A stretch of 64,000 nucleotides of DNA from Massospora cicadina (Eukaryota > Entomophthoromycota > Entomophthoromycetes > Entomophthorales > Entomophthoraceae). The stretch covers positions 1 to 64,000 of the forward strand of contig JAKSZP010012274.1 of NCBI GenBank assembly GCA_022478985.1. The letters are read 5' to 3'. This document shows, in pieces, positions 1,801-57,300 of this stretch. Under the pieces are notes generated by a model. The model saw only the letters and a list, made by a program, of their open reading frames with translations. It was not told the origin of the DNA and made no database searches. Both the position numbers and the translations under genes were made by a program. Position 1 is the stretch's first letter, and every line of letters begins with the position of its first letter.

Positions 1801-1904
1801 ATTGAATTCTATTTTTATCATGTGCTAAATACGAATTTTTATAGCGATAGTTAATGTGTAAATTTAACTTTAAATAGCTATGATAAAACAATTCGTAATG
1901 TTTT

Positions 1905-1924
1905 TTTTAGTACTAGATGGTCCC
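1905..1924 (-). mobile_element. Micro-retroinsertion A (20 bp) with 17-bp target duplication
   Basis: On the minus strand it reads GGGACCATCTAGTACT followed by an A run. The 17-mer ACAATTCGTAATGTTTT occurs immediately on both sides (1888-1904 and 1925-1941). The insert lies about 65 nt beyond the stop codon of the minus-strand RING gene, next to its AATAAA, so it is probably in or just past the 3' UTR. Confidence 0.85.
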
Positions 1925-1938
1925 ACAATTCGTAATGT

Positions 1939-1944
1939 TTTATT
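1939..1944 (-). terminator. Putative polyadenylation signal of the RING gene
   Basis: AATAAA on the minus strand, about 45 nt downstream of the stop codon at 1989-1991. It overlaps the inner copy of the micro-insertion's target duplication. Confidence 0.4.
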
Positions 1945-1988
1945 GGAATAAAAAGTGTGGATCATATGCGCCTTAAAAATCAAATATC

Positions 1989-3386
1989 CTATAAAAACCC
2001 AGGGGTTTTTCTTGAGAAAAGCTCTTGTTGATATTTTTCTATTTCTTGTATATCAATCTCAAGTTCATTACATAGTTCATCTAAGGCTTAGATAAAAAAT
2101 AACTCATAGTATATACCTTCGTTATTTTTGCTGTAATTATTTTCAAATTTCGCTTGAGAACGAAGCAGATCATCTTTTGCCGGTAATGATTCTATTTTAA
2201 AATTAGTATTGCTATAATTCATAATACTTCTACCTATTCTCCTTCTTGCACGTATACCATCTGTTTCTGCATACATAGCTTCTTCTTATGTTTTTAAGTT
2301 AACACTAAAATTAATTTTACTCATGTGGTTATATTTAGTATGAGAATCCATATTTATCTTAAAATCATTATAATGTAGCTTATTGCTTGGTAAACCATTA
2401 CTTCTATTTAATTCTTTATGAAATTTTGATGATAGAGAATTCAAATTGTCAAAGTCTACATTTAGTATGTACTAACTATTTACATGAGCTTTTTGTAACC
2501 AATTCCTCTTTTTTGTTTAGGCTATAATAATTTAGTTAATTTAATATGACTGAATGAGTTTTCATGGCTCTTTTAATTGATTAAAAATAGTTATTTTTTA
2601 AGCTTGCTATAATCTTTACTTATAAATAAATTGGTACTAAAATATGTATATATAGTTATTTGCCGCTCTTTGATTCGAAAACGCTTTTACTATTAAAAAC
2701 TACATTTTACCTTTCACGCGGTTCTAAATTATTGAACGAGCTATATTTTTCATTTAATAGTTGGTTTTTGAGATTGTGGTTTTCAGATTCAAGATCATGC
2801 ACTTTCCTAAAAATTATTATAAAATATGGATATTGACCTTTTAAGTTTTTGGGACTCTTTGGCTATAGCTCTAAACTTTCTTATTTCTTCATTACAAAGC
2901 TCAACTCTCTTTTTAAGTTCATCAATAACTTGTTCCCGGCTTTCAACTTGAAACTACCCTTTTAGCTTACTTGTTGTTTTTTACATTAACAGTTTCAAGA
3001 AGATTTTTAATTATATCTGAGACAGGCGAAAATGGACTGTTCTTCACTTGTGATTCCTTTAAGACTTACTCTCACATTTTGTTGTTCCTTTACCTTGGGA
3101 GCAATAAAAGAAAAGGAACACTCTGCTTCACAAACTGGACATCTTGTTATTTCTAGTTTACGATATGAGCTCGTTAGGCTACTCTCGATACAATAAAAAA
3201 GATACCTGAAAATTCATTAAATTGGAAGCACTTAGTGCAGATGATGTGTTTGCATTCTAGTAAGAAAAAATTTATTTGTATCTCATTTTTCAGGTTTAAG
3301 AGCTTGCATTTTGTGCACATTAAGGAGTTTTGAGTTGCACCATTTATTATCTGACATGATCTGTGGCTTGCTTTAACAACAGACAT
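1989..3386 (-). CDS. RING finger/coiled-coil protein, Zip3/HEI10/RNF212-like (nine exons)
   Basis: Joined exons (minus): 3386-3206, 3152-3094, 3056-2985, 2953-2838, 2806-2711, 2521-2484, 2455-2321, 2284-2117, 2080-1989. They sum to 957 nt, or 318 codons plus TAG, in frame throughout. All introns are GT-AG (53, 37, 31, 31, 189, 28, 36 and 36 nt). Several have CTAAC/TACTAA-type branch sites, for example GCCTAAC in intron 1. Residues 24-68 form a C3HC4 RING: C24, C27, C45, H47, C50, C53, C65, C68. Intron 1 splits the RING, and splicing restores the CPVC pair. Residues about 105-165 are heptad-rich coiled coil; the C-terminal half is polar with a basic patch (RARRRIGR). An N-terminal RING followed by a coiled coil in a ~300-aa protein is the plan of the meiotic SUMO/ubiquitin ligases Zip3, HEI10 and RNF212, which mark crossover sites on synapsed chromosomes. 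Family assignment is inference from architecture. Least certain are the 189-nt intron, which could hide a small exon, and intron 2. Met23 is an alternative start. Confidence 0.72.
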
Positions 3387-4126
3387 TTTGGTCTTTTTTC
3401 TACGTAATTTTAAGTGAGTTGTAGAAGCTTATTTTGAATTTCTTTTATATCGTAGAAGCATACAATCTTTATAACTATATTTAATAGAATTGTCTTGATA
3501 ATCTTTTTGCTAATTAAAAATATAAGCTTACATTGGTATCTGTTTACAAGTATATAAAACTATATATAGTGCATATAGTAGCTTTAGTCAACTACTGAAA
3601 GTCTTTATCCAATATGTACGCCCCTAAGTAAAAGTTATGCTTTCACTTTATTTTGAAATTATTAATTTGAGGTTTTGTGTGATTATTAGTGTGGTTAATT
3701 AGCCATAATTAATATTTCAATGCATTTTTTACTTAGTTGATTATTTTCTAAGAACTCATTTAATTACCAATAAATAGAAATAATTTGTTTTTAGCTATAA
3801 TAAGTTATAAGCTTATAATACTATAAAAACTAAAATTAGGTAAGCTAATACTATGAGAATCACAAAATCTTTAAATGGAGAGCTTGATAGTTAATTTTTA
3901 AAGTTTTGACTAATAATACCATGTAAACCTAGATTCTAGCTATCATAAAAGCCTGCAACTTAAGAGTTGTGAATATATCTAAATACAAATTTTTAGGCCA
4001 ATTATTTTTCTAGTTCTAGTAATCCTAATCATTTGTTTGCTTATTATAGCTTTTTAATAAGTTTATCTTTTACAAATCATTTCTGTTTAAGACAAAGAAA
4101 GTTTTTTCTAAAATTTTTATATCTTA
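3387..4126. other. AT-rich intergenic sequence upstream of the RING gene
   Basis: No ORF, tRNA or repeat boundary recognised. It presumably holds the promoter of the minus-strand gene, but no defined element can be named. Confidence 0.5.
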
Positions 4127-4837
4127 CTAGCCAATCTACCTAGCTTCGCTTGGGTTTATAATTTACCAGATGATTATAATCAATTATTCTAATTTTTATT
4201 TTGGTAGATGGCCATCAATAAGTTCAGAAACCATCAAATTTATTGAATATTCCAGCCACCAACCACTTGATTAAAATCAATTAAAACTATCAATTATATA
4301 AATTATTAATTGTTAGCCAAAACTAATGATACTACAAATTAACCAAAAATTATCAACACTTAACTAAAACCAATTGTTGAACTTATAAAGCAAATTAAAA
4401 ACTGCCAACTGATTATCAAAACCTATTTTATTTTTTAAAAATGATTCAAGTTTTACCTTATGGTAAAAACTTAAGTGCATGATATATGCCTTATAGCTAA
4501 AGGTTGTTAAAAACTTTCTTAACATTTTATCTACTGTTATAATAGGATACTAATGTTTTTTGTCATTTAACTTTCAAAAGAAAATATACCTGAGATGGTA
4601 AGATTACTTAAGTAATGGTTGGATTAGCCTAACCAAAACTGTGTATGACAGCAGGCTAGTAGCTGGTAGATAGATTCAAATTTATTTAATTTATATTAAA
4701 TTAGATAGCATTTTAGTTGTGGTGGTTTAGGAAATTATCTTATAAATAAATTATTATAAATGCATGTTTATTTTCAACATCTACTCCTAGACTATTTACC
4801 AATCTCAGATTAACCTGATACAAATTTTCTATGAAAC
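4127..4837 (-). mobile_element. Helitron-like 3' terminus and subterminal region
   Basis: Read on the minus strand, a short imperfect hairpin (CCCAAGC-GAA-GCTAGG, plus-strand 4139-4154) is followed by 8 nt and CTAG (4127-4130), then T. This repeats the layout at 25-52. The AT-rich sequence to the right (4160-4400) resembles, in reverse complement, the region before the third hairpin at 22416-22443. That suggests related non-autonomous elements. The 5' end was not located. Confidence 0.45.
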
Positions 4838-5225
4838 ATATATATAGTTATTTAGTTGACTTGATTAGTACAATATTTCAGGTATAAAATTGCCAGTTTT
4901 TACTTATTTAGTTTTTATTATTTAGTTGATTTTATCAGTCAATTATAAAGTAAACTTTCAGATATCTATCTATATTACCTAATTTTATTTATTTGGTTGA
5001 TTTAATTGGTCAATATATTATTAGTTTTACTGATGGCCATCTACAATTTCTCATTTTAGATTTAGTTAATTTTTAGGTCACTCTATAATAAAATTACTGA
5101 TCACCATCTATAATAACTCATTTTAAATCTAGTTATTTAATTGGTCAATCTATAATAAAATTACTGATTGCAATCTATATTAATTCATTTTAAATTTAGT
5201 TGATTTTATTGGACAACCTATGCAA
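4838..5225. repeat. Tandem array, locus 2 (~66-70 bp unit)
   Basis: About five to six decayed copies of the unit seen at 1153-1405 (TTTAGTTGATTTTATTGGTCAA, quoted only as TTTAGTTGATTTTATTGG, then a GATCACCATCTATAATAA end). It is followed by the same unique flank (5226-5310). Copies are more diverged than at locus 1. Confidence 0.65.
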
Positions 5226-5381
5226 AAATGAACCACACCCATAATAATTTAAGCTTGTCATGATATGATCTCATACTTGCCTTGATTTTAAACATACTCC
5301 CCAGCCATAGGACATATATCATATCAAAAAATGCTATATTATTAATTGAATAATAATAAGGGGAAAGGGGGGAAATTATTT

Positions 5382-5465
5382 TTTCTAGCCAGAAAAGGTT
5401 TCAAACCTGTTATGGCATTTTTATACCACCTTAGTTTATAGTTACAGGTTGAGCAATTACACCTA
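5382..5465 (-). mobile_element. SINE family 2 head fragment
   Basis: On the minus strand this is a tRNA-like head with B-box GGTTTGAAACC (5397-5407) followed by CTGGCTAGAAAAA, as in the complete family-2 copy at 13095-13226. The A-box side reads TGTAATTGCTCAACCTG. The tail is lost or too diverged to recognise. Confidence 0.45.
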
Positions 5466-6458
5466 GTTATTATCAAAAACCTATGAGCCTATTAATTTAT
5501 ATAGATAATGGAATTGATGACATATACAAGCACTTTTATATTATATATATTAAATAATAATATTATTTAAAAAATGGTATTGTGATATATCATTTTACTA
5601 GGATAGATTTATATAAAGTCTAATTAGTATAAGTCAAATCACCTAAAATTAAGTATTGTTGCTCATATTCTAAGAACTCTTTGTTGATACTTATTTTTGG
5701 AAAAGACTTTTATTATCACTCTGCATTATTTTCTTGTTATCACTAATAACTTGCAAATAATAATAAGCTTCAAAGGATATAAAAAGTAGCTATATAGTAG
5801 CAAGTGATAGTATAAAAAGGGTTAAAAGTTAGATTTAGAGACAAGTAGGTTAATTTCTATTAAAGAAATTTAGTAAAGAAGTGAAGATAAAGTGAATATA
5901 ATCTTATGATGATGTTTGTAATGATACTGCCAGCCAAATAATTCTCAATGTATCAAAGTAAAGTAATTTTTTATTTTAAAGTTATCATTTTTCAGAAATC
6001 AATTAAAACTAAAATCAAACTTTGGTATTTAGGGCATATATTAAAATATAAGATCTATGTATGGTAAGTAGATACATTATACATTTATATAAATTAGACT
6101 ATACAAGTAGATTTTATACTAGACCTATCAATTTTTAAGCCAAAAATAGTTAAAGTTAGATTCTGCTAAAAAGTATATATATACCAAAAATACTATATTT
6201 TATATACTAAGTATTAGTATAACTAGCTGATAATTATATTGTTTAGTCTTTTTGCATATCACTTTTCAATAAGCTATGATGAAAGCTATCAATAATAACA
6301 TTTTTATCTATAACTTATAATGATAAATCAATAGTATAACAATTAAAAAATCCATAAGGATAAAATGCTTATTGATTAAGTCTATACTAGATAATTCAGG
6401 TTGTTAGATTCACTTAAGTCACTAGGAAACTGGTCCCAAGTTCTAAATCATTTATAAT
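5466..6458. other. AT-rich intergenic sequence
   Basis: Very low GC with runs of TA and AAT. No coding segment, repeat boundary or RNA gene recognised. Confidence 0.5.
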
Positions 6459-6475
6459 AATATTAATAAATGTAA

Positions 6476-8424
6476 TTTTCTTTCCGTTCAATCTCACTCT
6501 GAGAAAATTTTATTAAAAAAGTGTTTAATTTTCTACTGCTGTCTGGCCACAACTACTTCTTAAAAAATGTCTGCAGATCCACCACCTGCTGCTCCAATGT
6601 GAGGTAGCTCTCCACTGCCTAGCGTTTTCTGCCCTATGGGCAAATGCGTTTGTATGGGGTCAAATAGCCCACTATCTTTTACAGGCTATTTTGTCCCCCT
6701 ACAGAACTTAGTGCTCCACCTGGCACATATCCACTTTTCTTGCCTCCATCCTCTAGCCCTACCTCATTCCAATATCCAATTTTGCCTAAGAGTTGACTAC
6801 AGGCATTTGCTCCCATATGTGACAAAGCAATTAACAAAGTAGCTACAGCTGTATTTGCACCAGCTGGTTTTATTGATTTCTGCTCATCTAAGGGCTATTT
6901 TGATGTTGATTTTCAAATGGAGGAGGATGTTCAGAAGCAGCTTCTACTCCTATAATTTACAGAAACACTCCAATCCTACCACCCAAACTTGCCTTCCTTC
7001 AGACACCACATTGTTGGTGTCCTTTGCATCCCTCCCATCTCACCTACCACCCCAGTTATTATATGATAAGTTGATGGTGGGGCTTCTGGATTATGAGACA
7101 CATCCCAACCTTGTCTTTGCTGTTTTTTCTGGAGCAGATTGTCTTGCTACCCTTGTTACTGCCACCATAATCCCACACCACCTTATCATAGCCTAAAAAA
7201 TCCACCCCCATGCTCATATTGCTGTGGCGCCTGAGCACACCTTTTGGGCTAGAGTGGATAATGGTTGCCAAATTTGTCCCCTCTGTTTCAGACTTGACTA
7301 TTCCAAAAAAATCCTGCCCCCAAGCCACTTCCTCAAGTGTAGCCTCTGAGCCATATTTGGCAGATTCTGAATGGGACATTTTGTTGCACTCTTCTGCTCA
7401 ATGTTCTTACTGAAGGGCCAGAGTGGGAAATTGGCTTTACCAAATCCACCCACATTATCCCACTTAATTTCACCCACACTAATAAGAACCTGGCCTGGAC
7501 TGCCATTCAAACCCAAACAGCCCATTTGATCTCTGCCCACCCAAAATCTCTATCCACTATTTCTGTGAACCAAAATCCACAGGAATTATTGGCCAAGATT
7601 GACAAACAGGTAATGTTGTCACCAATGAGGACTCCAATGAACCTCTTGACCTGCTCAATTGAGTTTGGGCCAAAATTTTACAACTCTAATTTTGACAAAT
7701 TCCCATCTTCTAAGTGATTCACTTCCAAATCCAATGCCATCCCCTGCCAAAGTGACCACAGCTCACCTTAGCAGCAGTGGCCTCACTCTATTGCCCAATT
7801 CTATGTAAAGAGGGCACAATCCATTTTTCAATTCCACCAGGGGCTGAGCATAGTCAAGTTCCCCCTGATTTCCCCAAAACAGCATAGTAGGAAATCACAA
7901 AATTGGCCACTGAAGCCACTAAAGCAGTCATGCATATGGCATAATTAGCAGATTTTTGACCCATCTGCAAAAATCACCTGACAAAGTCTCACCAAATTTT
8001 CCTAACTTCCCAAAGCCTGCATTCAAGCTGAACACCAAGTAGTGGAATTTGTTGAAGCTGTCTATCAAGCTGATCTTGAGGAAGGTAACCAACTTTTTGT
8101 CCACCTACATCCCCACCACGCTGATGCCCCCAAACCCTGGCTCTCCGCTTTTGTCCATTTATACAACTTCAATGATGATGATCAGCTGAATATGTATGTC
8201 AAAGCGCTGCCCAACCCCCCTCACCCTCTGCCATGGTGGGTTAGCAGTGTTCCACTGTCCTCCTGGTTGGAGTTTTATTTTGATTTTAGTTTTTTATTTG
8301 GTTGGTTTTTGGTTTTAATCCATTTGATTCTTTCACTCAGTTTTTTGTTCATTGAGTATTGGTAATGTCCATCCCCTGGTCAGTGTACCTCATATAAAAT
8401 TTAGAATTTAGAATTTAAAATTAA
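6476..8424 (+). mobile_element. ORF1-only LINE derivative (HAL1-like), full-length copy
   Basis: Bounded by a perfect 17-bp target duplication, AATATTAATAAATGTAA (6459-6475 and 8425-8441). It starts TTTTCTTTCC, as does the autonomous LINE (49063), and ends in the LINE-type tail with CCATCCCCTGGTCAG (8371-8385). It is a decayed gag-like ORF1 from ATG 6567: a Pro-rich N-terminus, a segment around 7000-7080 resembling the LINE ORF1 stretch at 49608-49680 (pattern SFxSLPSxLP), and a Cys-x2-Cys motif near 7280 (CPLC). Frames are broken by stops. No endonuclease or RT is present, and none would fit in 1.95 kb. It must have been mobilised in trans by a LINE. Confidence 0.75.
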
Positions 8425-8630
8425 AATATTAATAAATGTAAGAAAACTTGTTCTTTACTTTTAATACAAAAACAAACTCTAGTACCATTTAGCCCTAATA
8501 GATCAGCTGATATATTATGATAAAGTTTTATTACTATGCTATAGTTCGCTAAGTGTTTATATTAATTTTTAGGTTTAAAGTGTCAGCTCCAATATAGCTT
8601 ATAAAGTCTGCAGATATTATATTATATAAA

Positions 8631-8872
8631 CTGACTCCCTGAGTTTGATCCTGGTAGATAAACTTTGGGTAGGGGATGGTTATGACTGTGTTGGCGTTGT
8701 GCACCAATGCCCTGAACTGAGATAGCAAATAGCAAGGCAATCCATGGAGTTCCTGGACTATCATATTCACGCATGGAGGTTTTTCAGGTTTTATCCTCCT
8801 TTTCCATTTCTTCACTTCCCTTCATTGGTGCGGTATTGTCCCCAGGTTAGCCCACCTCAAATAAAATTTAAA
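8631..8872 (+). mobile_element. SINE family 1, copy 2
   Basis: A 242-bp copy starting just upstream of a B-box-like GAGTTTGATCCTGG. The family body and tail CCCCAGGTTAGCCCACCTC plus AATAAAATTTAAA follow. It is flanked by the 15-bp duplication ATTATATTATATAAA (8616-8630 and 8873-8887). The A-box part is missing, so this is a 5'-truncated insertion. Confidence 0.85.
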
Positions 8873-8887
8873 ATTATATTATATAAA

Positions 8888-10345
8888 AAATTCTATGATT
8901 CTTGATTTTTAATTAGTAAACTTGTGTTTATCATGGACAATCTTACTTACTGTTATAGCATGCTTAAGGTATCTTCTCTAATATATTAGTAAAGCTTGAT
9001 TGTCTAAGTTGTAATATTTTTTGCTTATATACATTTCTTTCATGATTTTGACTGGTTTATATTATATTAACTTATAAAGTTGTTAAGCTAATATGCCTGC
9101 TCAAAAAGCCCTTTTACACAAAACATCTCACTGCATAGGTAATGATTAGTTTCTTTTTACATATAATTCACTATTAGTATACTAGAAAACTGTTTAATTC
9201 AATGGACATAAAGTTAATATGTATGGCACCTTTTCTTTAATATTGGAATGTTAATAAAATAAATTTGCACTTAGATTACAAGGCACATTGTTTGTCAGAG
9301 CTGCAATTGTCATATCCTATTAAACTTAAATAGAATTCTGTATGAATACAATGTTAGCCACTGATACCTTGTTCATTAATACCAGTGAGGGCTATTTCTA
9401 AAGTTGAGGCCCTAAGGAGCGTTGCATCATTAAGTTGGTAGAATCAAACCTTAATTATGGCACAAAGAAAATACATAAGAATCAATAGAAACTAGTAACT
9501 GTAATGTTAGTTAAAATGATGTTAGGACTTATATTTATAGAAGCAGAGAATAATATTTTTTAAAGATAATCTACCCCTAACCTGCAATATTTTGTGAGAG
9601 ATGTTTTACAATGATAGGTCAAAACAAAGACATCACACCTTGTTGTTGTTTATAAAACGTTAATGAACTTAAATTGACAGGCAAGGGGTTAATACATTTA
9701 TAGATGCTTACATCTTTCAATACATCTGATCCATTTATATAACTCACATTTTAGTTTTATTATTAGAATTAAACACTTATTTAGTATTTACTTAAAAATC
9801 ACTAATATAATATAGTTTATACCCCTTTAAGTTGGGACCACCTAATATTAAAAATTATATTATTGTTTTAGGAACTTTTTTATAAAAATTGTTAGAATAG
9901 AGATTAACTCATCTTTATGCTTATTTTATGTTTAAGTTTTACAGTGGCCTTTAGTTAGATTAAAATTTGTATAAATCTAATTTTTTAAAGTTTAGTATTT
10001 GCACATTTCAGAAAAACTAATCTTAGTCTTCAAATATCAGATTTAATTTTTTACTTAGAACTTGCACTAACATAAACTAATTCTGTATTGATAAGTTTTT
10101 TTACAATAAGAAGTTTTACTAAAAACTTAGTATATAAATTACATATAGTATTGCATGTACTACTAGTTTTAAGATAGATATTAAAACATAAAAAACTTAC
10201 TTAATCCTAATAAAGCATCTACTTTTAGTATAAGTATATTACTTTTTTTATTAAAACAAACCATATAGTTCTATAAGCTTATATATCACTTGTCAACCTA
10301 TATAAATCTTTACAATATATAAAATTATCTATATATAATGAATGT
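8888..10345. other. AT-rich intergenic sequence with possible spliced coding
   Basis: No long ORF. Short open stretches next to GT/AG sites occur on both strands at 9090-9720: on the plus strand an ATG-led stretch at 9094-9139 ending at GTAATG, and on the minus strand a pair of segments joinable across a 51-nt GT-AG gap at 9367-9317. The strand and model could not be decided. Confidence 0.3.
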
Positions 10346-10363
10346 TCCTTTGTTTGTTTCTTT

Positions 10364-10408
10364 TTTTAGTACTAGATGGTCCCAACCCAAGAGGGGGATT
10401 CATCGATG
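10364..10408 (-). mobile_element. Micro-retroinsertion B (45 bp, longest copy) with 18-bp duplication
   Basis: The minus strand ends GGGACCATCTAGTACT plus A run and extends 25 nt further 5' (ATCGATGAATCCCCCTCTTG before GGTTG). The 18-mer TCCTTTGTTTGTTTCTTT flanks it (10346-10363 and 10409-10426). It is the only copy showing more of the donor sequence. Confidence 0.8.
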
Positions 10409-10501
10409 TCCTTTGTTTGTTTCTTTGTTTGTCCCATATGCGTTCCTATACCATTCATCCAATTGCAATGAAACTTTATTAAGTTGTTGTCACATGCCTG
10501 C

Positions 10502-12882: not shown

Positions 12883-12886
12883 AAAC

Positions 12887-12904
12887 TGGTGCTCCCTGCC
12901 AGGT
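12887..12904 (+). other. Primer-binding site of G1
   Basis: TGGTGCTCCCTGCCAGGT begins 4 nt after the LTR end. TGG directly after an LTR is the expected complement of tRNA 3' CCA. Its first 8 nt (TGGTGCTC) are the same as in G2 and X. The primer tRNA was not identified. Confidence 0.6.
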
Positions 12905-13094
12905 ACACCCCAAGTTCCCAGTGAAAACATAAAATAAATAAAAATGAACAATAAAAATTCAGTGTCAGATCTCTTTTTAGATCAGGAACACCTTAAACTC
13001 TTGGCAAATCTATCTGATATGATGTGTGGGATGAAACAAAGAATTATCACCCTTGAGCAACACCAACTAGAACTTCAAGATGTGACTACCAAGC

Positions 13095-18137: not shown

Positions 18138-18143
18138 TACTTA

Positions 18144-22579: not shown

Positions 22580-23711
22580 GTCTAAAAATTTACTGGGTTT
22601 TGCTATTATTCTCAGCTGGTAACCCTAAATTAATTAACTGCACAGGTTCAGTGTTGTTCAATTCTTCACGTTGTCTGATAGTGATATGTATTCATTTTGA
22701 TAATAGTATGGAGACTGTTATCCATAGTTGAATAAAGTACTAGTATTGGGTCCAACGCTTGACCAATATTATCTCTTGAAATACTTAAGATGTCCTCAAT
22801 AAGATTTATTCCCACCATCTAGTACTAAAAAAAAAATAAGATTTATTCCCTTGTACCACCTAACTTGATCCATGCTCAGATCCTCATTTATGGTTTTTCT
22901 CTGGTAACACACAGTCAGCAGCAATCCCCAATTCAGCTTCTCTTCTCTGGATCCACGCTCAAATACTTACCTTTTATTCTAAAAAGTCTCCCAATTAAAG
23001 CACACAGCAATAATTTCCCTGAAAAAGAATAGAATGGTAAAGTGTCCTGTAAAGCATTGATTTTATTTAGTAACTCTTAGCGAAATTTATAGTGGAAATT
23101 TGGCGCCCAACCCTCATTTGGCACCTCAATGATGAAATGGCAGCCGTTGTCATTGAATTACCCAGAATCATCTCATGAGCGATGGTATTCCCTATCCTGG
23201 CTAGGATTCCATAATTGGATATCCTTGAGACCTAAAATGTAAAGAGTCAGAAAACCTGTCCCTAACATTTTCCTCTTGATCCCAGTGAACCAACCATATT
23301 TGGCAAGCAACCTGCTTAGGTAATGTGACTTGTTACCTATTAATGCAGATTGTGAACCAACTATTTGATTTGCTAGTTGCAGGCGGCATCACTCACCTCA
23401 CAACTTAATACTTAAATTCCCAACCAGTTGGTGATGAAACCCAACCAATACCAATTGTTACACCTGATAGTTAATCATCAATCAACCATCAGATGCACTT
23501 ATTTCATCAGCAACTCTGCCTGACAAGATCTTAAGCATTCACCTGATTGATCCCCAACAGATCTGACCCAGGAAAATTACCTAAAATCCCCCAAACATTG
23601 CTACCATGAAATCAGGGTCAACTGATATCCAATTCACTTTGCTATAGGGAATTATCTCCTAGCAACCCCAGGTAATCTAGTCAGCTGGGAATATGGGCAA
23701 AAAACCCAACA
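22580..23711 (-). repeat. 3' LTR of G2, carrying a micro-insertion
   Basis: Collinear with 30688-31756 over its whole length (shared TTATTCTCAGCTG, CAGCAATCCCCAA, GGGAATTATC and others). Its polypurine tract lies directly upstream on the minus strand (plus-strand CATCCCCCCTCTTGCC at 23712-23727). It is 37 bp longer at 22798-22850 because of micro-insertion C. Confidence 0.9.
22814..22834 (+). mobile_element. Micro-retroinsertion C (21 bp) with 16-bp duplication and empty site
   Basis: ACCATCTAGTACT plus eight As, flanked by perfect 16-mers AATAAGATTTATTCCC (22798-22813 and 22835-22850). The partner LTR has the unoccupied sequence (TTAATAGGGATTTGTTCCC then TGGTACTGCC, about 30900-30927), so the boundaries are proven within the window. 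Confidence 0.93.
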
Positions 23712-25150: not shown

Positions 25151-28010
25151 AACAACCCCCAAGTCAAGGATAACCAATTTAAATAAAAATGATAAAAATA
25201 AATCTTTTTCCTATGCATTTTTTATATTTTTTCCCAATATTTTTGTCAATCTTTTTTTTTTTTTTTTTCCATGAGACTTGACCTTTTTTGGTTCAGAGGT
25301 CCAATTTTTTATTTTGTTCCCCCAAACTGGTTCCTAGGTATACTTAGACCTACCAGTTTTCTATGGTTCAGAGGTCTTACTTTTTTAAGACTTAACCATC
25401 TAGTTTGGTTCAGCAGTCCTTTTTTCAGACTTAACCAAATCTTCAGGACATAACTAACTTAATAGTTCAGCAGTCCTTTGGGAACTCTTTTTTCATTATT
25501 TTTTTCATCGATCCATTGCTTTAAATACTTAGCATAAACTCAATTTACTATCCTTCCATCCAAGATGCTCTTAATGGAGTAGGCGTACATTGACATATTT
25601 GCAATAATTTTGGATGGACCTTACCACAACGCAACCAACTTGTTTCTTCTCCCAAAACTATGTATATCACAGTAGGAAACTCTTTTTCCTATTCAATTAT
25701 TTTGATAAGGCCAGTTGGTTCTTATCATCTGTCATTTTTGCTCAAATCCTTTTCTTCAAAGTTGTATCAAATGCTTGCAATTTCATTTCAATCAAGATAT
25801 CTGTCAATTGGTTCAGGTACTGATTGGCACTCATTCCCAATGTTGGTTCCACCACCTAATATAAAATCAGTGGCAATGCAGCCAACCTTATGTATAGCAA
25901 CTCAAATGGCGTTTTTCCTGTCGCTGTATGGTGACTTATATTGTAGACAAACGTCACTGAACTAAGGTACATTCCCCATGAAGCACTTCTTCCTGCGACC
26001 AGCTTCCTCAGTGTTACAGCCAAAATCCCATTGACTCGTTCTACCAGTCCGTTCATCTCCAGCTGGTAGGGTACAGACATGACTCCTCAGATCCCCATTA
26101 TTTCACAGAATCATGGGATCACATGAGATATGAAATTTGTTCCATTGTCACTCATCAGAACCTGTGGGCATCGATGTCATTATACTGCTTGATCTAGAAT
26201 AAACTTGACAGTGCTTGTAGTGTCTACTTTTGCCAGGACCTTTGTCATGAACCATCTTTTCAGATGGTCAATCGCAACTATGATATACTTGACTCCCTTT
26301 GTGCTCATTGTAAGTGGTCCCATTATGTTGATGGACACCATATGATAATCCAGAACGGGCCATTCAGTATCCAGTTGTATTCTTATGCAGCTTGTGCAAC
26401 TAACACTCCACACAACAAGACAGATAGTCCGCGACATTGTAGTTGATAGACTCCCAGTAGTAATACTGGCTCATAAGATCAGTCGTATTTCTCAAGCCTC
26501 CATGCCCAACAATCTTATAAGCGGCTTGAACAATAGCCACTCATTTCGATGGCTTTGGAAATAGTAAACGCTTCCCATTGATTGTCTTGAAAACTTGTCA
26601 ATCCATGGTCTCAGTGTTTTCCATTGCTTTTTGAAGCGCACCTTGTATTTCTTGAAGTTTATTCCTGATTTATCCGCTGACCATTCTCTGAAATAGCTCA
26701 TCCTCCTGTTGGTATACCATCTGGACCATTAGTAACCACAGTAAGCTCTCTGCATTCTGATGAGAAGCCCCAGTTTGGTGGACTATCTTATAGTCATAGG
26801 CCTGTAACTTTAATGCTTATTGGGCCAGTTGTCCTGGTTCTTATAAATTGTGCAGCCAATGCAATGAGGTTTGATCAATCACCACTTTGAAGTGCGTTCC
26901 ATGGATGTACACCCAAAACTGTTTACAAGCATTATTGACCGTAAGCATTCACACTCAGTCACAATGTAATTCCTCTCAGCGGCTGGGAGTGTCCAGCTCA
27001 CATATGCCACTGGATGTTCATCCCCAAGTTCATTTACTTGGCTCATTATAGCGATGATTGCCATCAACAAAGCATCAGTTTGTCTTATAAATTCTCAATT
27101 AGAAAATGAAAATTTCAAAATTGGAGAATCTATTAAATACTGGCGTAACTCATTGAAGGATCTTTGGGCTTCTTCACTCCAAGCAAATCCATATTCAGAT
27201 TCTTCAGTAAATAGAAAAGGGGCTCATGATTCTTGCAAAATCCCAAATGAATCTTCTATAGTATCTGACCATTCCAAGGAACACTTGTATATCTCAAACA
27301 CTCTTTGGCACAGCCATTCGCTCTATGGCTTTGCTCTTCTGGGCTTGCATCTGCAGTCCACTAGAGATGATCACAAATTCAGATATTTCAACTCTTTCTT
27401 GAAAAAGTGACACTTCCTCAGCTTAATCTTCAGGTTGGCCGCGGATAGTCTCTTGAACACTTCTTCCAAGTGATGAAAATCGTCAGTAAATGTCCTACTG
27501 AACACATTGTTATCATCCAAGTACACTAGGACGCATGACAACTTCAAGTCATTTAGTGTTGCATCCATGGCCCTCTGAAACGTCGCAGGCACATTTCACA
27601 GACCTTGGGGCATCCTCGTCAGTTGATATAGCCCCTGCCAGTGATAATTGTACATTTCTCTTGGCTTTCTCTTGGCAAATCAATTTTACAATATCCTAAT
27701 ATTAAATCCATTGCATGGAAATACTTTGCTTCTCCAAATTGATCTGGCGAATCATTGATTCTTGGTAGTGGGTACTAATACTTCTTCATAATCTTGTTCA
27801 GCTTCCAATAATCGATTACCACCCAATTAGAGCTGTCCTTCTTCTTCAAGATAAGGATAGGGCTCACCCAGGGACTTGATGACAGAACTAGAAGACCATG
27901 CTTTACTCTTTTGCTAATTTCTTTCCTCTACTACCACTTCAGCCACCTTTGAACATCAAATCGGTCTTATCATGATTGGTAAATTTTCCCTGGTATTAAC
28001 CTTGTGGATC
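25150..28010 (-). pseudogene. RT, RNase H and integrase of G2
   Basis: In order on the minus strand: RT with a YLDD catalytic box (VYLDDNNVFSR, 27592-27371 segment) and NAP/PATFQRAMD motif; RNase H near 27070-26780 (HPVAYVSWTLPAAERNY, then the ITDQTSLHWLHNL-like block); integrase zinc region (~26500-26380) and core (26437-25856: VAIDHLKRW, then YQLEMNGLVERVNG). The YLDD aspartates are kept, but the open segments are separated by stops, so no polyprotein can be made. Most similar in the window to G3. Confidence 0.85.
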
Positions 28011-43330: not shown

Positions 43331-43332
43331 CA

Positions 43333-43350: not shown

Positions 43351-43352
43351 AG

Positions 43353-45381: not shown

Positions 45382-45399
45382 GCTGGTGAAGCCCCTTCT

Positions 45400-46800: not shown

Positions 46801-46828
46801 TGGACCCTGTCCTTTTTTGAAAGTGTAA

Positions 46829-47715: not shown

Positions 47716-47720
47716 GCCTA

Positions 47721-48451: not shown

Positions 48452-48685
48452 TTATTTGAAAACTGAACTAAAATCTTTTTTTTCTGCAAGCTTTAAAATC
48501 AGACTAAGTATATTGTTGTTTGAATCCTCTAAGTCAGGTATTATATTACCCACCAGAGAATCTCTTATATCCTCATTTTTATTTTTATTAAGAATCAATA
48601 ATAACAGAAGAGTGGATAGCTTATCAGAGTGGATCCTGATACCACTCTGGGTTGGGTTCTTGTTGAAACAGGTTTGAAACCACAC
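48452..48685 (-). CDS. Possible terminal exon of a host gene, reading out of a SINE
   Basis: An open reading frame whose last ~50 codons (48601-48452) look like ordinary protein: charged and hydrophobic residues in register, KNEDIRDSLVGNIIPDLED, ending KKDFSSVFK and TAA. Its first ~28 codons come from the antisense of a SINE family-2 copy. A plausible 3' splice site (TTTTTATAG) lies inside the SINE near 48690, and another (TTATCTTTCAG) at ~48770 beyond it. Either the SINE has broken an exon or part of it has become exon sequence. No upstream exon could be fixed, and the 5.2-kb LINE lies in the way. No family recognised. Confidence 0.35.
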   Translation of the reverse strand: MWFQTCFNKNPTQSGIRIHSDKLSTLLLLLILNKNKNEDIRDSLVGNIIPDLEDSNNNILSLILKLAEKKDFSSVFK

Positions 48686-48740
48686 AGTCTATAAAAACTC
48701 AGCACGTATATTTTTCCCAAGGTCAACCAACTTCATTTAC
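48605..48740 (+). mobile_element. SINE family 2, copy 3
   Basis: A-box-like TAGCTTATCAGAGTGGAT, B-box GGTTTGAAACC (48671-48681) and tail TTTTTCCCAAGGTCAACC, matching 13095-13226. Target duplications are decayed (AATAATAACAG and GTAATAAACA). Confidence 0.65.
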
Positions 48741-49381
48741 TTTCAAAAAAGTAATAAACAAAAAGACCTGAAAGATAAAGGTAGAACAATACAACTCTAA
48801 TTAACTAAACTAGAAAAGATTTTGCTATTAATGAAAGTAAAAGTTATCTCTTAGTTATATTTATAGCAATCATATTTGTTCAATAGTATCAGATATATTT
48901 AAAGCCACTGCAAATATGTTGAATCATACATTTATCTGAATTAATAGCCCACTTATAATCAAATCAAAAAATTTTTAACAAAATAGTAGGTAAAATATAG
49001 AGGGAGATTTATAAACCTATTCAATAAAGTAAAATAAGCTTTTTAAGTTTTGTTAATTGCGCTTTTCTTTCCTGTAACAATCACTTTAGTTACTACAATT
49101 TGATTTGAACAGCAATTTTTGGTAATCACACAGGAGATATGGGCGATTTTAATAAATCTATACAACCTGGGCGAGCGTCGCATCAGGAGGTGCACAAAAT
49201 GGTGCACCCAAGGGCAAGAAACGCCCTGGAGGGGGACCAGGAACCCAAGCCACCAAGAAACCGCAAACTCAGACACTGTCCAGGTTTATGGTACTTACTA
49301 TAAAACAAAATCAATACATGTACATCCAGTGTAACCAACCTCTTTCAAAGGTGGAACACAGACTTTGACTCTTTCTATGGG

Positions 49382-50193
49382 ATGAGTCCCCAACCCTGTG
49401 GGAGAAAACATGCGAGGCACAGCCCTCCCTTTTCCCCCACGCGGTATATGTCACCACCAACAACATGGGCTACAGCTGGATCAATATTAGTTTTGAAACA
49501 GCTGAAGAAGCAGATGCCGCAGCAAAAGTCAGCATCAAAATTACCCTTTCTGAGGGCAAAAGAATAGTGTGCACTGAGCGCACCAGATGGAACAAAGCAA
49601 AAACTTTGTTCATCTCCTTTGACTCACTCCCTACCAACCTTCCTCATAAGGTAATTGAGGAGGAGCTCCGCAAAGGGCTTGTAGCCTATGGAGAAATTAT
49701 GCAACTTGAATTACAATAATTTCGCCTGATGCCAACCCTGTGCACAAGCAAAGCTATCACCATGATCAACCCATTCCCCAAAGTGGAAGATGACTTATCA
49801 AGAATCCCTTGCACAGAATAGTTTCACTTTGCAGATGGGGGACAGTCATCCACAATCTGAATCACACCAGAATGTGCACCGCCTATATGCAACCACTGCA
49901 TTTCATTGGGACACAAGGAACACGCATGCCCCGTGAAGGAGGGCTTAATGAAAGCAGACTACTGTGAGGAAGCTATGGACAAAAGTAATGAAAACTTCGC
50001 CAGAATGACCAATGGCCACCACCCATTCCGCTGGGGTGAAGATGGACTTTACTCCATCGTGGACCCAGTTACACATAAACAACACAAAGCGGCACAAAAA
50101 GCCTTCAAGCGGGCAGCAGCCAAGGCGGCAGCACATGCAGAATCATCCATCGACCCCAGACAAATTCAAGAGGACATTTCAGATATACACTGA
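49382..50193 (+). pseudogene. LINE ORF1 (RNA-binding, CCHC)
   Basis: Open segments at 49465-49719 and 49906-50193 plus a linking stretch with two or three stops. The first part (ISFETAEEADAAAKVSIK, then FISFDSLPTNLPHKVIEEEL) has the look of an RRM-type fold. CNHCISLGHKEHAC (49891-49932) is a zinc knuckle. The C-terminus is Lys/Ala-rich (KAAQKAFKRAAAKAAAHAE). ORF1 proteins coat the LINE RNA. Related sequence is found in the two ORF1-only derivatives. Confidence 0.8.
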
Positions 50194-50559
50194 GCCAACC
50201 GTTCAGAACAATATGCACAAGTTGAAAATTTTCACAGCAACTCAACTGAGTCACCAAGCAACATCAATCATGCACACTTTAAGGAACAATTCAGCTGCAA
50301 TATGGGCGATAATGTGGTGCACAATTCTCCAAACTTGAACCCCAAAATCACAGAATCCAATTAGCACCCCACATTGAACCATCATGAGACACGTGTGGGA
50401 AAAGATAACGCAAATTCCAAAAACCACAATTTCCGCAAAAAATTGGGTCAGATCAAGTGAAATGACATTGTCACTGAGAGAGTTGGAGTACAGACACAGA
50501 GCATGGCCAAAACGAGCCGCGGTGGGTTAGGGCCAGAGGGCCCTCCCAACTGCTCCTGA

Positions 50560-53500
50560 GGTGCCACAGGCAACTCAGTGTCAATAGGGACGTTAAACAT
50601 TGCGGGGGCCAGGGCTCAAAAATCCCAAGCCAAAAATCTGGACTTCCTGCAAAAACCCCTTGTAGACATCTTGGCCATCCAAGAAACCCACTGTCTACAA
50701 GGGGAAGAAGGATCCTGGTCAGCCAGGGTCTCACCATCACAATTGGTATGGACGTCTCACTGTGGGGTGATTGTCCAAAATAACAAAAAATTAAAAATTA
50801 CAAACTCCTCGTCATACCTTCATGGCCACGTCCTGGTAGCAACAATCACATGCCAAGAGGAAAAAATCTCGATAGCATGCATCTATGTACCATGCACTGC
50901 AGCTGAGAGAAAACAATTTCTCAAAACCATTCCAACACTCACCCTCCCACCAGATACCATCCTGTTGGGCGATTTTAACTGCTGGGATAACCCCAACACA
51001 GACCAATGACCTAACTCCAGGGGATACCCACTGGGGCACATTGAATTCCGCACAATGAAGGCATCCCTTGGCCTACAGGATGCCCTCCCCCCAGATCACC
51101 ACTCCTTCCCCACATGACATGGCCCAACATATGCAAGGGAGCAAACATATCAATGAGCCGCATCAATCACATCCTCATTCTGCAATCCCAACAATCAAGC
51201 ATCTTCAAATTTTCAACCAAATAGTCAATTTTTCTGACCACCAACTTGTTTTGGTGCAGCTATCACCAACCCAAACCCATGCATAGGTGTCGCCCTGGAG
51301 AAAGCTACACCCAGAAAACATAGTGTTACCTGAAATATCTGACTGGGTCAAACATGAGGCCACAAACCCAGAATTCACAGCCCCATTCACTTCAGATCCC
51401 ATCATAACCTGGGCAAATTCTAAAAAGGATCTAATCAACAAAACCTGACATCTCACATCACGTTAGTACACCGCCAACACAGCCACAATCAGGCGTATCT
51501 TGGCAGAGCTGGACTACCTCAAGCTAAATACCCCGAGATCTGGTTACAGCCCTAACTGGGGACGCAAATGGGTGGAAATATCTGCCCACCTAAACACCCT
51601 CATCTTTGAGCACCAACACAGAATCAAAGTATCAAACAAAGGTAAGTTCATAAAGGAAGGCGAAACATGTTTGACATATTTCTTCTGCCAATTTCACTCC
51701 CGTGGCAACAAGCCCATGTGCACACAGGTCTACAAGACTGACGGCACCGTGGCAACTGACCCTGAGGAGGTTAAGGCGGAAGCACACCATTATTATACCA
51801 AATTATACCACGATACGCTGACAGACCCTCAAAAAATCACAGAATTTATAAATATTGCCAGAATACAAAGCACACCGCCAGACTACAATATACTAAATCT
51901 ATTAACATGGGAGGAGCTTTGGGATATAATCCGCGGTTCACCATAAAGGAAATGCCCAGGGCCTGATGGGATACCCTACAAATTTTATAAAAAATATATT
52001 CAGCAAATTGCCCCCCTCCTATTGTTGTCTATGAACCAATGCTTTCTGGAAACACGCCTCCTACCTGGTGGCCATGAATCATATGTCATAACCCTGTATA
52101 AGAAGGGTGACAAACTGGACCTGGCCAACTGGCGTCCAATCGCACTTTCTAATACTGATACAAAAATTCTAACAAAAATTTTTAGCAGCCAGATTAGGCA
52201 CAATAGCCTCTAATGTCCTGTCACCTAACCAGTTTGGGTTTATACCAGGGCGCTCAATCTGAAACAACATACACCCTGTTGCAAACATATGTCAGTCCAT
52301 AGCAACTGGAGCCCTGGTCTTCTTAGACCAGGAAAAGGCGTATGACCACGTAAGTTTGCCATACCTAAAAGAATGCCTAGAAGCTTTAAAACTCCCACCC
52401 AGATTCACAAACTGGGCGATTCTTTTTACAGAATCTGCAACCATGGCTATATGCGGCCCTGGCTTCCTAACTAACAAGATCACACCACACAGAGGGCTCA
52501 AACAAGGGGACCCCCTCAGCCCACTGCTGTATAATTTCAGTTTTGATCCACTCCTCCGCGTAACTGACTCACGCCTCATGGGCATAACTGCATAAGGCCA
52601 GCCAACAGTCAAGATACTGGCCTTTGCGGATGACTACATGGCAGGTATAGCTAACAACAATGATGCCTGACAGCTGGAGTGCACCCTAGAGGAATACTCC
52701 ATGGTGAGCAACGCATCACTCAACAAAAGGAAAACAGAAATTATTCTCTTAGGCAAGTACACTAATAACTGGGCTACAACACCAGAACCTCACACCCTCA
52801 TACTAAGAAAAACCCACTCATCTTACCCTTTGCATCACCTCCTACCACCACTCCTGTCCGCCACCTTGGGATATGGCTGGAAACAGGTGGATATGCCAAT
52901 GAGACAATGGAAAGCAACCTACTACAGCAGGTATCCAACCGCGTCGCCTCCCTCAAGGGAAGATCCCCAGGACTAACGGGGCGAGTAGCAGTTGCTAACT
53001 CACTCATCCTTCCAATACTATGGTACCCTGCCCACATGATAGCCTTCTCACCCATCTTTATAACTTCAATCCAAGCGCTCATCCAGGGCTGGATGTGGCC
53101 CGGATCCCATCCTCCCATATGGATGGAAACACTCTTTGGCCCACGCTCAAGCAGAGGCATGGGACTAATAAATTTTGAGAGCCACGCCAACCGCATCCTG
53201 GGTACCTGGATAAAGGAGGTCCTTGCCCCAGACCTCCCACAACAACACTGGTCCAGGGCAGTGAGGACTAACTTTGCACAGGCGCTCAAATTAACTAACC
53301 CACATAGCCCACCCAGACTATTATCATACCTTGTTAAACACCCTATTGCAACAGGCCCTTATGGAACCCCCCTCACTTCAAACGCATCCTCTGAGCCATC
53401 CACCACATGGGGTGGACCGTAGAGAACACTGGCACTGTGCAGGGAAGGGGACGACCCAGCCCCCACTTCAAATTAAGAAATCCAGAAAACCACCCCCAGA

Positions 53501-54195
53501 GAGACATGCTTGCTATGACCCCAAACATTGCTAGAACCAAATACCTAGATGTGTTGAACATTCCCTACAACTTAACCACACAGAAGGTAGTGTGGAAAAT
53601 GACGCACCATCCACTCCTACAGCTGAGGGTAAGAGCCAATGCCTATCGCTGTCTGAGAAGGACCTATAGGATGGCAGACCGCTCCAATTCTCCTTTACGC
53701 AACCTGCGCAGTATGTGGAGGGGAGGGCTCCCTATACCACCGCCTAGAAACATGCCCCCCAACCAAAGCCATATGGCGGAAAGTCGCGCGCCTGCTTAAG
53801 CTCCAAAATGAGCAAGAATTTTATATCTCAAAGAGCCTCCTAATGCTCCAGATCGAATCACCAATCTCATCTACCCTCCGCTCCCTAATGATACCCATTG
53901 CAATGTGGACAATCCAAACCATTGCCTTAGATGCGTTCAAGGGCACAATCCCAACCATCCTTGGGGTTATCAACAGGTTCAAAGTTCACTTATTAAAGCA
54001 CTTCCAAGCCTGGCTCTATGGATATATGAGGCTAAGGCAACAGGCGCTCATAGAATCGTGGTTCCCACTCTGGTTCCTCCACACAGACCCCTTCCTTCAC
54101 ACCTGCTCTATAGCGGTGAGGACCCCCTCAGAGTAGCGCACCAACCCCAATACCTGGCAGTACCGCCGGCAACAGGGGTAACCTGAGTACCCTGT
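50560..54195 (+). pseudogene. LINE ORF2: endonuclease, reverse transcriptase, Cys-His C-terminus
   Basis: From ~50578: endonuclease motifs LNIAGA, AIQETHC (catalytic Glu), LLGDFNCWDNP (Asp/Asn), to about 51450. RT: CPGPDGIPYKFYKK (51955-51995), YKKGDKLDLANWRPIALSN (52100-52155), DQEKAYDHV (52326-52352), RGLKQGDPLSPLLYN (52492-52536), FADDYMAG (52622-52645, the catalytic box, intact). The post-RT region 52907-53422 is the longest open stretch in the window (171 codons). CAVCGGEGSLYHRLETC (53706-53756) is C-x2-C-x7-H-x4-C, as at LINE ORF2 C-termini. Stops occur at about a dozen places, several as TGA/TAA/TAG for Arg/Gln/Trp. Confidence 0.9.
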
Positions 54196-54304
54196 GGCGC
54201 CCAATTTGATCTACCTTCGCTTACCCCTTTTTTTACCACAAATACTTGGTAATTCCCATCCCCTTGTCAGATTGCCTTGGTTAAATAAAAGTTTTGTTAA
54301 TTGC

Positions 54305-57300
54305 TTAGGGTTGACTATACATGGCTGTTGGAACTTAAGGAGCAATCTTTTTCAATCCAAATAAGGTTGCAAATTCCAATAATTAGATAACCTGGTTCAA
54401 ACTTGGCTTCCACCTCAACTTCAAATTCTCAGATAAATCACAAATATGACTGAAATAGCACTATCTATCATGAAGGATGTTGTTAGAGACAAAGAGCAAA
54501 AGCCCTTGTCTTGAAGAAAAGTTGTTATAAAGTACTTATATGGGAATCCAGCTGATTGTTGCTCGCTGATGCTGGATACCGCTGGATTCCACAATCAACT
54601 TATTTAAATTAAGTATAAAAGACTAATCAAAAAAGCTTGTTTTATAAGATTTAATTAGTGTTGGTGTGGGAAAGAGAAATGAACCCTCTCAATATCTGAC
54701 CGTTTAGTATATAAACTGTAATGAGGATTGAAGGAAATTCAATGGTAAGTTTGGAATAGCTTAGTATGGTCCAACTTATGAAATATGTAAATTTGGCCTA
54801 TTGGAGCTCAGAAAACTTGCTTCACTTTGGCTGAATGACAGATAGGGAGTTATTTTTAGGCAAGACATACCCGTGGGATAATGATTTAATAAATTTCAGC
54901 CAATCCCCATTAAAGAAAATTATTGCACCCTGAGGACCCCTGCCAGGCCTATAGAAGGGGGTGGTCCCCGCTTAGGTGCTTGCTTTGAACTGAATATGAC
55001 CTGTGGAGAAACCTCCAATAGACTTCCCAGGCTTCCCCGCATGGTCAGATCAATTCAACTTCCCAACTTTGTGCTATTTGCCCCTATATTATTTGTAAAA
55101 GTGTTACCACAATTTGTGGGGTTCCACTGAGAATTGACCAGGGTCTTTTAGCTGATAAATTGTTATCATTGGGACCATATAGTACTAAAAAATAAATTGT
55201 TAATAATACTTAAATCGCTTTTATCATCATTACAAACTTGTAAATGTCTGACAATTTCCCCTTTTGCCAATTTTGACCCAAAACATTCTTTTCTTTAAGC
55301 TGGGAAGGCAAATGTCTGACAACTTGCATTGGGAATTAAGAAAATTACTATATTATTTTAGGGGCTTGTCATGTTCTCTTCTAAAGAGGAGCAAAAATAA
55401 TAAACATATTCCTTGGTTTCATATAGGCTCTCTGTAGATGTCATGACCCTAAAACTTATAGATATCAAGCAATTTAGCTTGTAAAGTATTTTATTAATTT
55501 GTATCTATTATATACTACCTCTTACTCTTTGATAATAAACAGTCTATAGACTTAACTTCAAGCCAAGGTCAACCTTTTAGTAATTTTTAAGTGTTAATAA
55601 GCTATATAACGTCCAAGAATTTCAGCTTTAAGATTGATTGATACATCTGGCCATACCCTATACTACAATGCCTGATTTTTTGGTTCTTTTTAACAAGCTT
55701 TATGAGGTGTAAACAGTGAGCATCTATCAATAATGGACAATAACTCTATTTAAGACGCCTCTAAATCCAATGGTGCACTTTTAGCACCCATTAAGTAACA
55801 ACTGATAATTTAAGAGGTGGCGCCTCCTAACCCAGCTACCCCTTGAATTTATTGCTGAGAATGGAGTAGAAGTATTCACTATTGACAAAGATGAATATAA
55901 GATGGGATTTTCAGTTTAGTTAGTCACCAAAAGCTAATAAATGATATTTTCATCCCTCAAGGACAATCTAGTTAATAAAGAGCCTCTACTTTACCCTTTC
56001 ATATAAGAGAGCTGTACCATTTTATAATCTTTTTATTCAGAAAGTGATACTAAAGCCACCCAACCCCTTTGTCATTATGTGAACCCTGCCATCTACCATA
56101 TTACAAAGATTGTGAGGTGTACTATCAGGAAGCCTTGTAGCAAATAAAATTTATTCAGTTACACTCTTATACCTTTAACTTTATCATTCTGTCTTCTCCT
56201 TTGTAAAAAAGTACTGAGACACGATTTTTTGACAATTGTCACTAGCTTAATAAGTTTTTCGACAGGTAGCTAGATTATATGATGAGGGTTGAAATTTCAT
56301 TCCTCGTATAGGTCAGCCTTGGTTAGGGTTGAGCCCAGCATCAACATCATGTATTGAGTGGTTTTGGGACTTTATTTTAGATTTTTAGGTGTAGGTTAGG
56401 CCACAAGGTCACCAGAGGAGCGGTGTTGATGCATTATGGATAGTGAATTTAAGTAATTAATGGGACACCACTTGGATGGTGTTATGAGTTTTTTTAGGCC
56501 ATATTACTAAATATAGGATGATTTTACCAATGAAAAGACTTAGTTGCATCTTATGTCACGTTAAGTCAATAATGCTAACCACCATAATTTATATGTCTAA
56601 TAATTTGAGTGATACTTTCCACTATAGAAACTAAATTAATCCAGTATGGCACAAATCAGGATGTCATCTCGCCAGAGTTGTCAGTATTATAGTTTAACAT
56701 TTATATAAGCCTTCTTATAAAACCTTAAACTATCCCCTAACTTCCTCATCACAATCCCATTATATATAAGATCTTTTGCAATCCTAATATATATGGTTGG
56801 TCTTACTTTTTGTAAAAGACATCATTTATTCATGTGTATCTATTACCTAGTTAATTCTTATCCTAGCTGTTTTGGGGTGGGAGAGGGGGTCCCCAGAGTA
56901 TGAGCATTCCTGGGTATTTTGTTGCCAAGTAGTCTGCCCAATTGCTCATATACCCTAAGCTGCATTGAACTCTGTGGGAGGAAAAGCCCAATTGTGAACT
57001 TAGAAAAAGGGACTAGGTGAAGATCAGTCCTATTAAAGTTAAGATTGGGAAGAGCAGCTCCTAGAACACTTGGGCTAATAAGGCAGGATAGGTTTAGGAC
57101 GCTGTGTTTTCCAATGTTGCAGGTAACCTGAGGTGAAGTCGCTCAGTTGTGTAAATGGGTTAAGGGTTGCTGCTCACAAACTTATAGCAATGGTGAGTCA
57201 ATGAGGAAAGTCATGCAAGGGCTGGCAATTCTATTATCTCCCTGGATTAACAGAGGAGCCAAAACTTTTTGACATATAAAATTGCAATATTGGGAGTTTA

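Follow-up and report, generated by a model that had tools for sequence, protein, structure and literature searches.

Very short copies of the 3′ end of an L1-like LINE in the genome of Massospora cicadina

A 64,000-nucleotide stretch of the genome of the fungus Massospora cicadina (assembly GCA_022478985.1, contig JAKSZP010012274.1, positions 1 to 64,000; hereafter the window) contains four very short insertions that share a core sequence, end in an A run and lie between direct repeats. Elsewhere in the assembly, contig C6245 encodes 404 aa of EF-Tu with 100% identity to the M. cicadina protein; the runner-up is Entomophthora muscae at 86%. Comparison with the whole assembly indicates that these inserts and their many genomic relatives are almost certainly products of target-primed reverse transcription (TPRT), copied from the 3′ end of an L1-like long interspersed nuclear element (LINE), active in the recent past, by that element's own enzyme. 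The core, a predicted hairpin and the A run together form the 3′ end of this ~6.4-kb element, as established by sequence match to its long copies; the longer element ending in the core, which a preliminary description of the window had proposed to look for, thus exists.

Results

Four short inserts in the window

The four sites given in the preliminary description, each with the shared core, an A run and its own distinct direct repeats, are all present. The repeats measure 17, about 16, 16 and 11 bp, so that the reported range of 16–18 bp holds at sites 1–3 and is generous at site 4, where the exact repeat is only 11 bp long. Ahead of the A run, three of the inserts are 13, 16 and 21 nt long, and the fourth, at 10368–10409, has 42 nt and ends in the same core. 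The features are as follows, with size classes named as in the length analysis below.

1888–1904, unstranded: site 1, target site duplication, copy 1 (17 bp)
1905–1924, minus strand: site 1, short-class insert GGGACCATCTAGTACT (1909–1924) and A tail
1925–1941, unstranded: site 1, target site duplication, copy 2 (17 bp)
10346–10361, unstranded: site 2, target site duplication, copy 1 (exact repeat of about 16 bp that merges with a run of T)
10362–10409, minus strand: site 2, 41-nt-class insert (10368–10409: ACATCGATG...CTAGTACT, the whole 3′ hairpin) and A tail
10409–10424, unstranded: site 2, target site duplication, copy 2 (base 10409 assignable to insert or duplication)
22798–22813, unstranded: site 3, target site duplication, copy 1 (16 bp)
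22814–22834, plus strand: site 3, short-class insert ACCATCTAGTACT (22814–22826, 13 nt of core) and A tail
22835–22850, unstranded: site 3, target site duplication, copy 2 (16 bp)
55155–55165, unstranded: site 4, target site duplication, copy 1 (11 bp, exact)
55166–55191, plus strand: site 4, short-class insert, CCATAT variant (core 55171–55186, five extra bases ahead), and A tail
55192–55202, unstranded: site 4, target site duplication, copy 2 (11 bp, exact)

Allowing up to three mismatches, the core matches the window five times against 0.45 expected. The fifth match, with 3 mismatches, lies at 9834–9849 on the plus strand.

Copy number and chance controls

The assembly was searched genome-wide (1,469,884,898 bases in 16,968 contigs), and each exact pattern was also read backwards as a control. 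Patterns reaching 8, 10, 13 and 16 nt into the core gave 39,550 copies (CTAGTACTAAAAA; reversed control 143), 35,669 (ATCTAGTACTAAAAA; 7), 30,390 (ACCATCTAGTACTAAAAA; 0) and 18,943 (GGGACCATCTAGTACTAAAAA; 0), in keeping with the earlier expectation of very many copies per genome. The count falls by 3,881 from 8 to 10 nt, by 5,279 from 10 to 13 nt and by 11,447 from 13 to 16 nt, part of each drop being copies lost to mutation. Because the last drop far exceeds the earlier ones, lengths of 13–15 nt are commoner per nucleotide than shorter lengths.

Insert structure was examined in the first 100 exact ACCATCTAGTACTAAAAA copies in contig order, a sample that is not random and requires the exact 18-mer. 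A duplication was called at a flanking repeat score of at least 11, and flanks shuffled between sites provided 498 control pairs. Duplications flank 84 of the 100 sampled copies and 3 of the 498 shuffled pairs; the genome-wide core search and flank test suggested at the outset therefore return numerous copies and duplications around them. A core-free scan for a direct repeat plus an A run covered 282 kb, which apart from the window was DNA fetched around core sites, and gave 22 cases, 18 with the core, against 2 in a mirror control in which the A run had to lie at the opposite end. The four core-less cases (window ~25408–25479 and 59318 onward, and two at the sampled site L016) are probably background. 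A chance origin of the inserts was rejected on the core counts relative to expectation and reversed control, on the duplications relative to shuffled flanks, and on the core-free scan. Also rejected was the possibility, raised in advance as one that would undo the proposal, that the core is part of a longer repeat at every site: 90 of the 100 sampled sites lie outside any longer copy of the element.

Insertion hallmarks

The inserts are flanked by duplications of 12–26 bp with a common target motif. An A run directly followed by a target site duplication, a mark of TPRT, is found in 84/100 copies of the sample, in 20/20 selected copies of the 41-nt class and in 16/17 sites matching only 10–12 nt of the core. 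With the +1 base defined as the first non-A, the target preference is AA|GA (n = 84), with A at −2 in 69 cases, A at −1 in 74, G at +1 in 48 and A at +2 in 55. Together with the duplication frequency, this nick motif upholds the original interpretation of poly(A)-tailed TPRT inserts. The A tail itself is present as described, yet short and tight, with a median of 7 that includes target A's.

Comparison of the two copies of the duplications over 1,153 bases gives 15 mismatches (1.3%). The alignment favours matches, which biases this figure low; on this divergence, many of the insertions are young. The same junctions bear on the idea that long insertions were later deleted to their ends, or that the inserts are an assembly artefact. 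We found no evidence in support of either; the duplications abut the short insert directly, with just those 15 mismatches, and identical end positions recur on different contigs, which makes this explanation exceedingly improbable. Deletion of longer copies was rejected on the clean junctions.

The parent LINE

The parent element encodes an endonuclease (PF03372, 3.1e-10), a reverse transcriptase (PF00078, 8.8e-34) and a weak C-terminal zinc finger (zf-RVT, 9.6e-6; 26.6 bits, just below the 27.5 cut-off), and so has the endonuclease, reverse transcriptase and zinc finger expected of an L1-clade LINE. An ORF1-like frame upstream of the endonuclease gave no Pfam match. In a PDB search, the reverse transcriptase matched human L1 ORF2p (1e-36) ahead of R2 (1e-27), a ranking by similarity among solved structures, and its protein matches include a plant 'Line-1' (40% identity) and Mucoromycota. 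Likely duplications flank the long copies L010, L015 and L016, and none was found for L009. In these four copies, 376 bp near the 5′ end are duplicated in tandem, with a different arrangement in L010.

The window holds a second LINE-like element with broken frames at 50560–54136 on the plus strand, with an endonuclease match at 50560–51009 (PF03372, 9.6e-6); no family of short inserts was tied to it. A survey of M. cicadina repeats places 92.4% of the genome in repeats and 6.3% in L1 LINEs, and the section of it that deals with repeats makes no mention of such footprints (PMC10515909).

Of the two donors first proposed for extreme 5′ truncation, a LINE or a short interspersed nuclear element (SINE), the LINE stands; the small-RNA fragments proposed beside them may still be the template. 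A SINE was rejected, in that the inserts are short pieces of the LINE 3′ end with no RNA head of their own, and ARAGORN and Rfam (gathering threshold) gave no tRNA or Rfam match within the window.

Insert length is close to all-or-nothing

Judged from its genomic copies, the LINE inserts at lengths of ~8–24 nt, of ~41 nt or mostly in full, with middle lengths rare. The 84 duplicated inserts of the sample divide into 62 of 12–24 nt (the short class), 2 of 27–28 nt and 20 of 36–43 nt (the 41-nt class). The other 16 comprise 10 long LINE copies and 6 copies of the short or 41-nt class for which no duplication was found (L027, L031, L035, L053, L072, L093). Overall, 90 of the 100 are shorter than 45 nt, 9 are at least 6 kb and 1, L006, is ~0.5 kb long. 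Eight of the 10 long copies hold the LINE 5′ terminus, L016 begins ~235 nt inside it, and the tenth is L006. Scaled from the sample, the genome would hold an estimated ~21,000 short inserts (of at least 13 nt), ~6,000 of the 41-nt class and ~3,000 long copies. The preliminary view that the inserts hold the last 13–20 nt of a donor describes the short class and misses the division into two size classes, the second of which has a fixed 5′ end and includes the insert at 10368.

The templated length of the short class is most often 13 (15/62), in a search whose own floor lay near 12–13 nt. Shorter inserts were sought at 17 sites matching 10 nt of the core but not 13; a duplication score of at least 11 was obtained at 16 of them, L146 being doubtful, and these 16 consist of 15 inserts of 8–13 nt and one copy of the 41-nt class with an altered core.

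Long copies were counted genome-wide with exact 22-mers at ~−45 nt (2,207 copies), −920 nt (2,718), −4.56 kb (2,309) and the 5′ terminus (2,416), those at −920 nt and −4.56 kb having been chosen from the sampled long copies themselves. The first is conserved in 6/10 sampled long copies, the next two in 9/9 of those that reach so far and the last in 7/8; scaled accordingly, the counts become roughly 3,700, 2,700, 2,300 and 2,800 from the 3′ end to the 5′ terminus. Some loss toward the 5′ side is possible on these figures, without the steep fall of random truncation. Among 35 listed 3′-end sites (contigs C1–C56), an exact 22-mer mate exists at −4.5 kb or the terminus for 28 (at the terminus for 23), at −920 nt alone for 5 and at none of these positions for 2. 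Truncation may explain the seven sites without a distal mate, as may simple mutation of the 22-mers.

These figures make it very unlikely that the inserts are the short end of an ordinary random 5′ truncation, sampled only there. Extreme 5′ truncations are a known kind of TPRT product, the ~0.5-kb copy exists, and the 7/35 sites that lack an exact distal mate (4.5 kb or farther) would allow up to a fifth of the long copies to be of middle length. Ordinary truncation, however, should spread its end points broadly, and the observed 22-mer counts show no fall toward the 5′ end, only 1 of the 100 sampled copies is of middle length and at most 7/35 long copies could be truncated before 4.5 kb.

A precise 5′ end of the 41-nt class, next to a predicted hairpin

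The LINE 3′ end is predicted to fold as GAUG-AA-UCCC...GGGA-C-CAUC. The 5′ end of the 41-nt class varies by only about one nucleotide around a point 5 nt ahead of this hairpin, and the short inserts terminate within its 3′ arm and loop, the UCCC/GGGA stem beginning at length 13. Genome-wide, ACATCGATGAATCCCCC occurs in 6,648 exact copies and, with five further upstream LINE bases, in 2,207; about two thirds of its sites therefore either terminate or lose the match there. In the first 20 copies of the 41-nt class, which were unselected, the LINE match stops 5–8 nt upstream of the first base of the hairpin, and exactly 5 nt upstream in 15/20. A second set of 20 was chosen for keeping ACATCGATGAATCCCCC, which contains ACATC, without upstream LINE bases; measured from ACATC, 19 begin at −1 to +2 nt (12 of them at 0) and one, L125, begins at −4. 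This choice excludes later starts, and the lower bound on the 5′ end was therefore taken from the first set. One 41-nt-class copy, L128, has the 3′ end TAGTAATAAAAAAAG in place of TAGTACTAAAA, perhaps from a different priming point.

A 5′ end this sharp would also suit a separately transcribed, minimal SINE-like parasite that uses the LINE enzyme, with the shortest inserts as its truncations. The CTCTTGGG type of hairpin loop is seemingly enriched in such inserts, being found in 11/2,207 exact long 3′ ends and in 2/20 of the first 41-nt sample, 0/20 of the second and the window copy, a contrast that depends on the 2/20 and the window copy. Against a parasite, long and 41-nt copies share the TTGGG and CTCAGG hairpin types, and the searches for tRNA and Rfam families drew a blank in the window. 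To our knowledge, 41 nt is too small for any known internal RNA polymerase III promoter, and we regard this origin as improbable.

Discussion

A proposed mechanism from template remnants

The mechanism that we favour, with a probability of about 0.5, is that short 3′ remnants of the LINE RNA are copied to their ends by the reverse transcriptase. The LINE enzyme would sit on the 3′ end of its own RNA, much of which would be shortened from the 5′ side before or during TPRT. An Xrn1-type 5′–3′ exonuclease would run processively and leave few intermediates; its halt 5 nt before the 3′ hairpin would yield the precise 41-nt class, and once the hairpin opened, trimming down to the stretch held in the enzyme would yield the short class. 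The reverse transcriptase would then copy the remaining template to its end, and ordinary second-strand repair would make the duplication. Such remnants would account for the precise end of the 41-nt class, for the scarcity of middle lengths and for the microhomology at the 5′ junctions of the 41-nt class, which stands at chance level (17/35 versus 42% in shuffled controls). Human L1 offers a comparison, with microhomology at chance level in full-length copies and at nearly 80% in 5′-truncated ones (PMC2912911). In Xrn1, the path from the surface to the active site has been proposed to hold 5–6 nt of single strand, and the enzyme halts 5–6 nt before the stem in the exonuclease-resistant RNAs (xrRNAs) of mosquito-borne flaviviruses (PMC5760640).

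Several points weigh against copying of remnants. Other xrRNAs place the halt within a stem (PMC5760640). The predicted hairpin (−8.9 kcal/mol, z 0.14) is no stabler than shuffled sequences, which counts against any hairpin role, and covariation is thin: 25/31 sequences are fully paired, one compensatory change occurs, and 6 break one or two pairs. Without bound protein, a plain hairpin should not stop Xrn1. The disparity in the CTCTTGGG type may mean that genomic long copies do not mirror the RNA pool. Finally, the short class shows a slight excess of junction microhomology (22/56 versus 25% by chance, p 0.015), a figure biased downward by the 10–12 nt set, which was picked for mismatch at the next bases. 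This class is a smear without a sharp end, and with its microhomology excess aborted synthesis fits it at least as well.

Aborted TPRT is the main competing explanation and a substantial possibility, though one we favour less. Here the RNA would be intact, and the enzyme would stall and release either inside the hairpin's 3′ arm, for the short class, or just past the hairpin, for the 41-nt class. An enzyme that got through the hairpin, and only such an enzyme, would turn processive and reach the 5′ end, much as RNA polymerase does at promoter escape. Short-class ends do lie in the 3′ arm and loop, with a length peak at 13, where the stem begins; the peak coincides with the search floor of 12–13 nt, yet the genome-wide counts also rise at 13–15 nt. 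Ends at 25–35 nt are scarce (2/84), copies that extend beyond the hairpin are mostly full length, and the microhomology excess of the short class points the same way. Abortion would not, however, lead one to expect a 5′ end that is exact to the nucleotide, 5 nt past the hairpin, the ordinary stability of the hairpin tells against a stall there as well, and inserts of 8–11 nt exist that stop ahead of the UCCC/GGGA stem. Extra bases at the 5′ junctions (21/77 short, 6/41 of the 41-nt class) do not separate the models. A mixed origin is quite possible, with remnants behind the 41-nt class and abortion behind the short class.

Comparison with known systems

TPRT, L1-type LINEs, extreme truncation and 3′ stem-loops are already known. 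The Massospora LINE resembles human L1 in its L1-type endonuclease and reverse transcriptase, its 3′ A run, its duplications and its A-rich target. Human L1 tails are long, unlike the A run of about 7 seen here. Duplications of full-length human L1 peak at 14–16 bp (PMC2912911). Human copies are frequently 5′ truncated (PMC13174262), whereas insertion of the Massospora LINE is near all-or-nothing, with the majority of copies below 45 nt. Stringent-type LINEs (UnaL2, SART1 and some plant L1s; PMC3747384) have a stem-loop beside a short 3′ A run; in the Massospora LINE a stem-loop is predicted at this place, with weak covariation.

For zebrafish ZfL2-2 in DT40 cells, premature cDNA is joined to the upstream target by non-homologous end joining, a possible source of the short class; inserts were recovered there through a reporter cassette, so that inserts of tens of nucleotides would be invisible (PMC2666801). 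Magnaporthe MINE chimeras also involve a fungal LINE with unusual template use in TPRT, yet in them a second RNA is fused by template switching (PMC2104539), whereas the Massospora inserts examined consist of 3′-terminal LINE sequence and no more than a few added bases. The subgenomic flavivirus RNAs (PMC5760640) have some 5′ ends fixed 5–6 nt before a structured stem, compared with 5 nt in the Massospora inserts; they are a cellular product of RNA decay, while the likeness in Massospora is seen in DNA copies and with a simple predicted hairpin. Among the titles and abstract openings listed by searches of the open-access literature, which leaves out most subscription papers, we found no report of a LINE whose copies are mostly below 45 nt and otherwise mostly full length.

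Implications

Tentatively, and at just short of an even chance, we propose that most insertions of this LINE are copies of remnants from the decay of its own RNA, that insert length is set by the template left over and not by enzyme processivity, and that most events fall below the reach of repeat finding. If so, tens of thousands of copies would form a nucleotide-precise record of where RNA decay stops, both 5 nt before the hairpin and at the footprint of the enzyme. On the question of why LINEs are so frequently truncated, the M. cicadina system separates the outcomes naturally: with some 39,000 copies of the core, stops can be located at single-nucleotide resolution and set against RNA decay, abortion of reverse transcription and repair. 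With only about 40 bp added, a footprint would usually go unnoticed in repeat annotation, and counts of retrotransposition based on alignable copies can miss most events.

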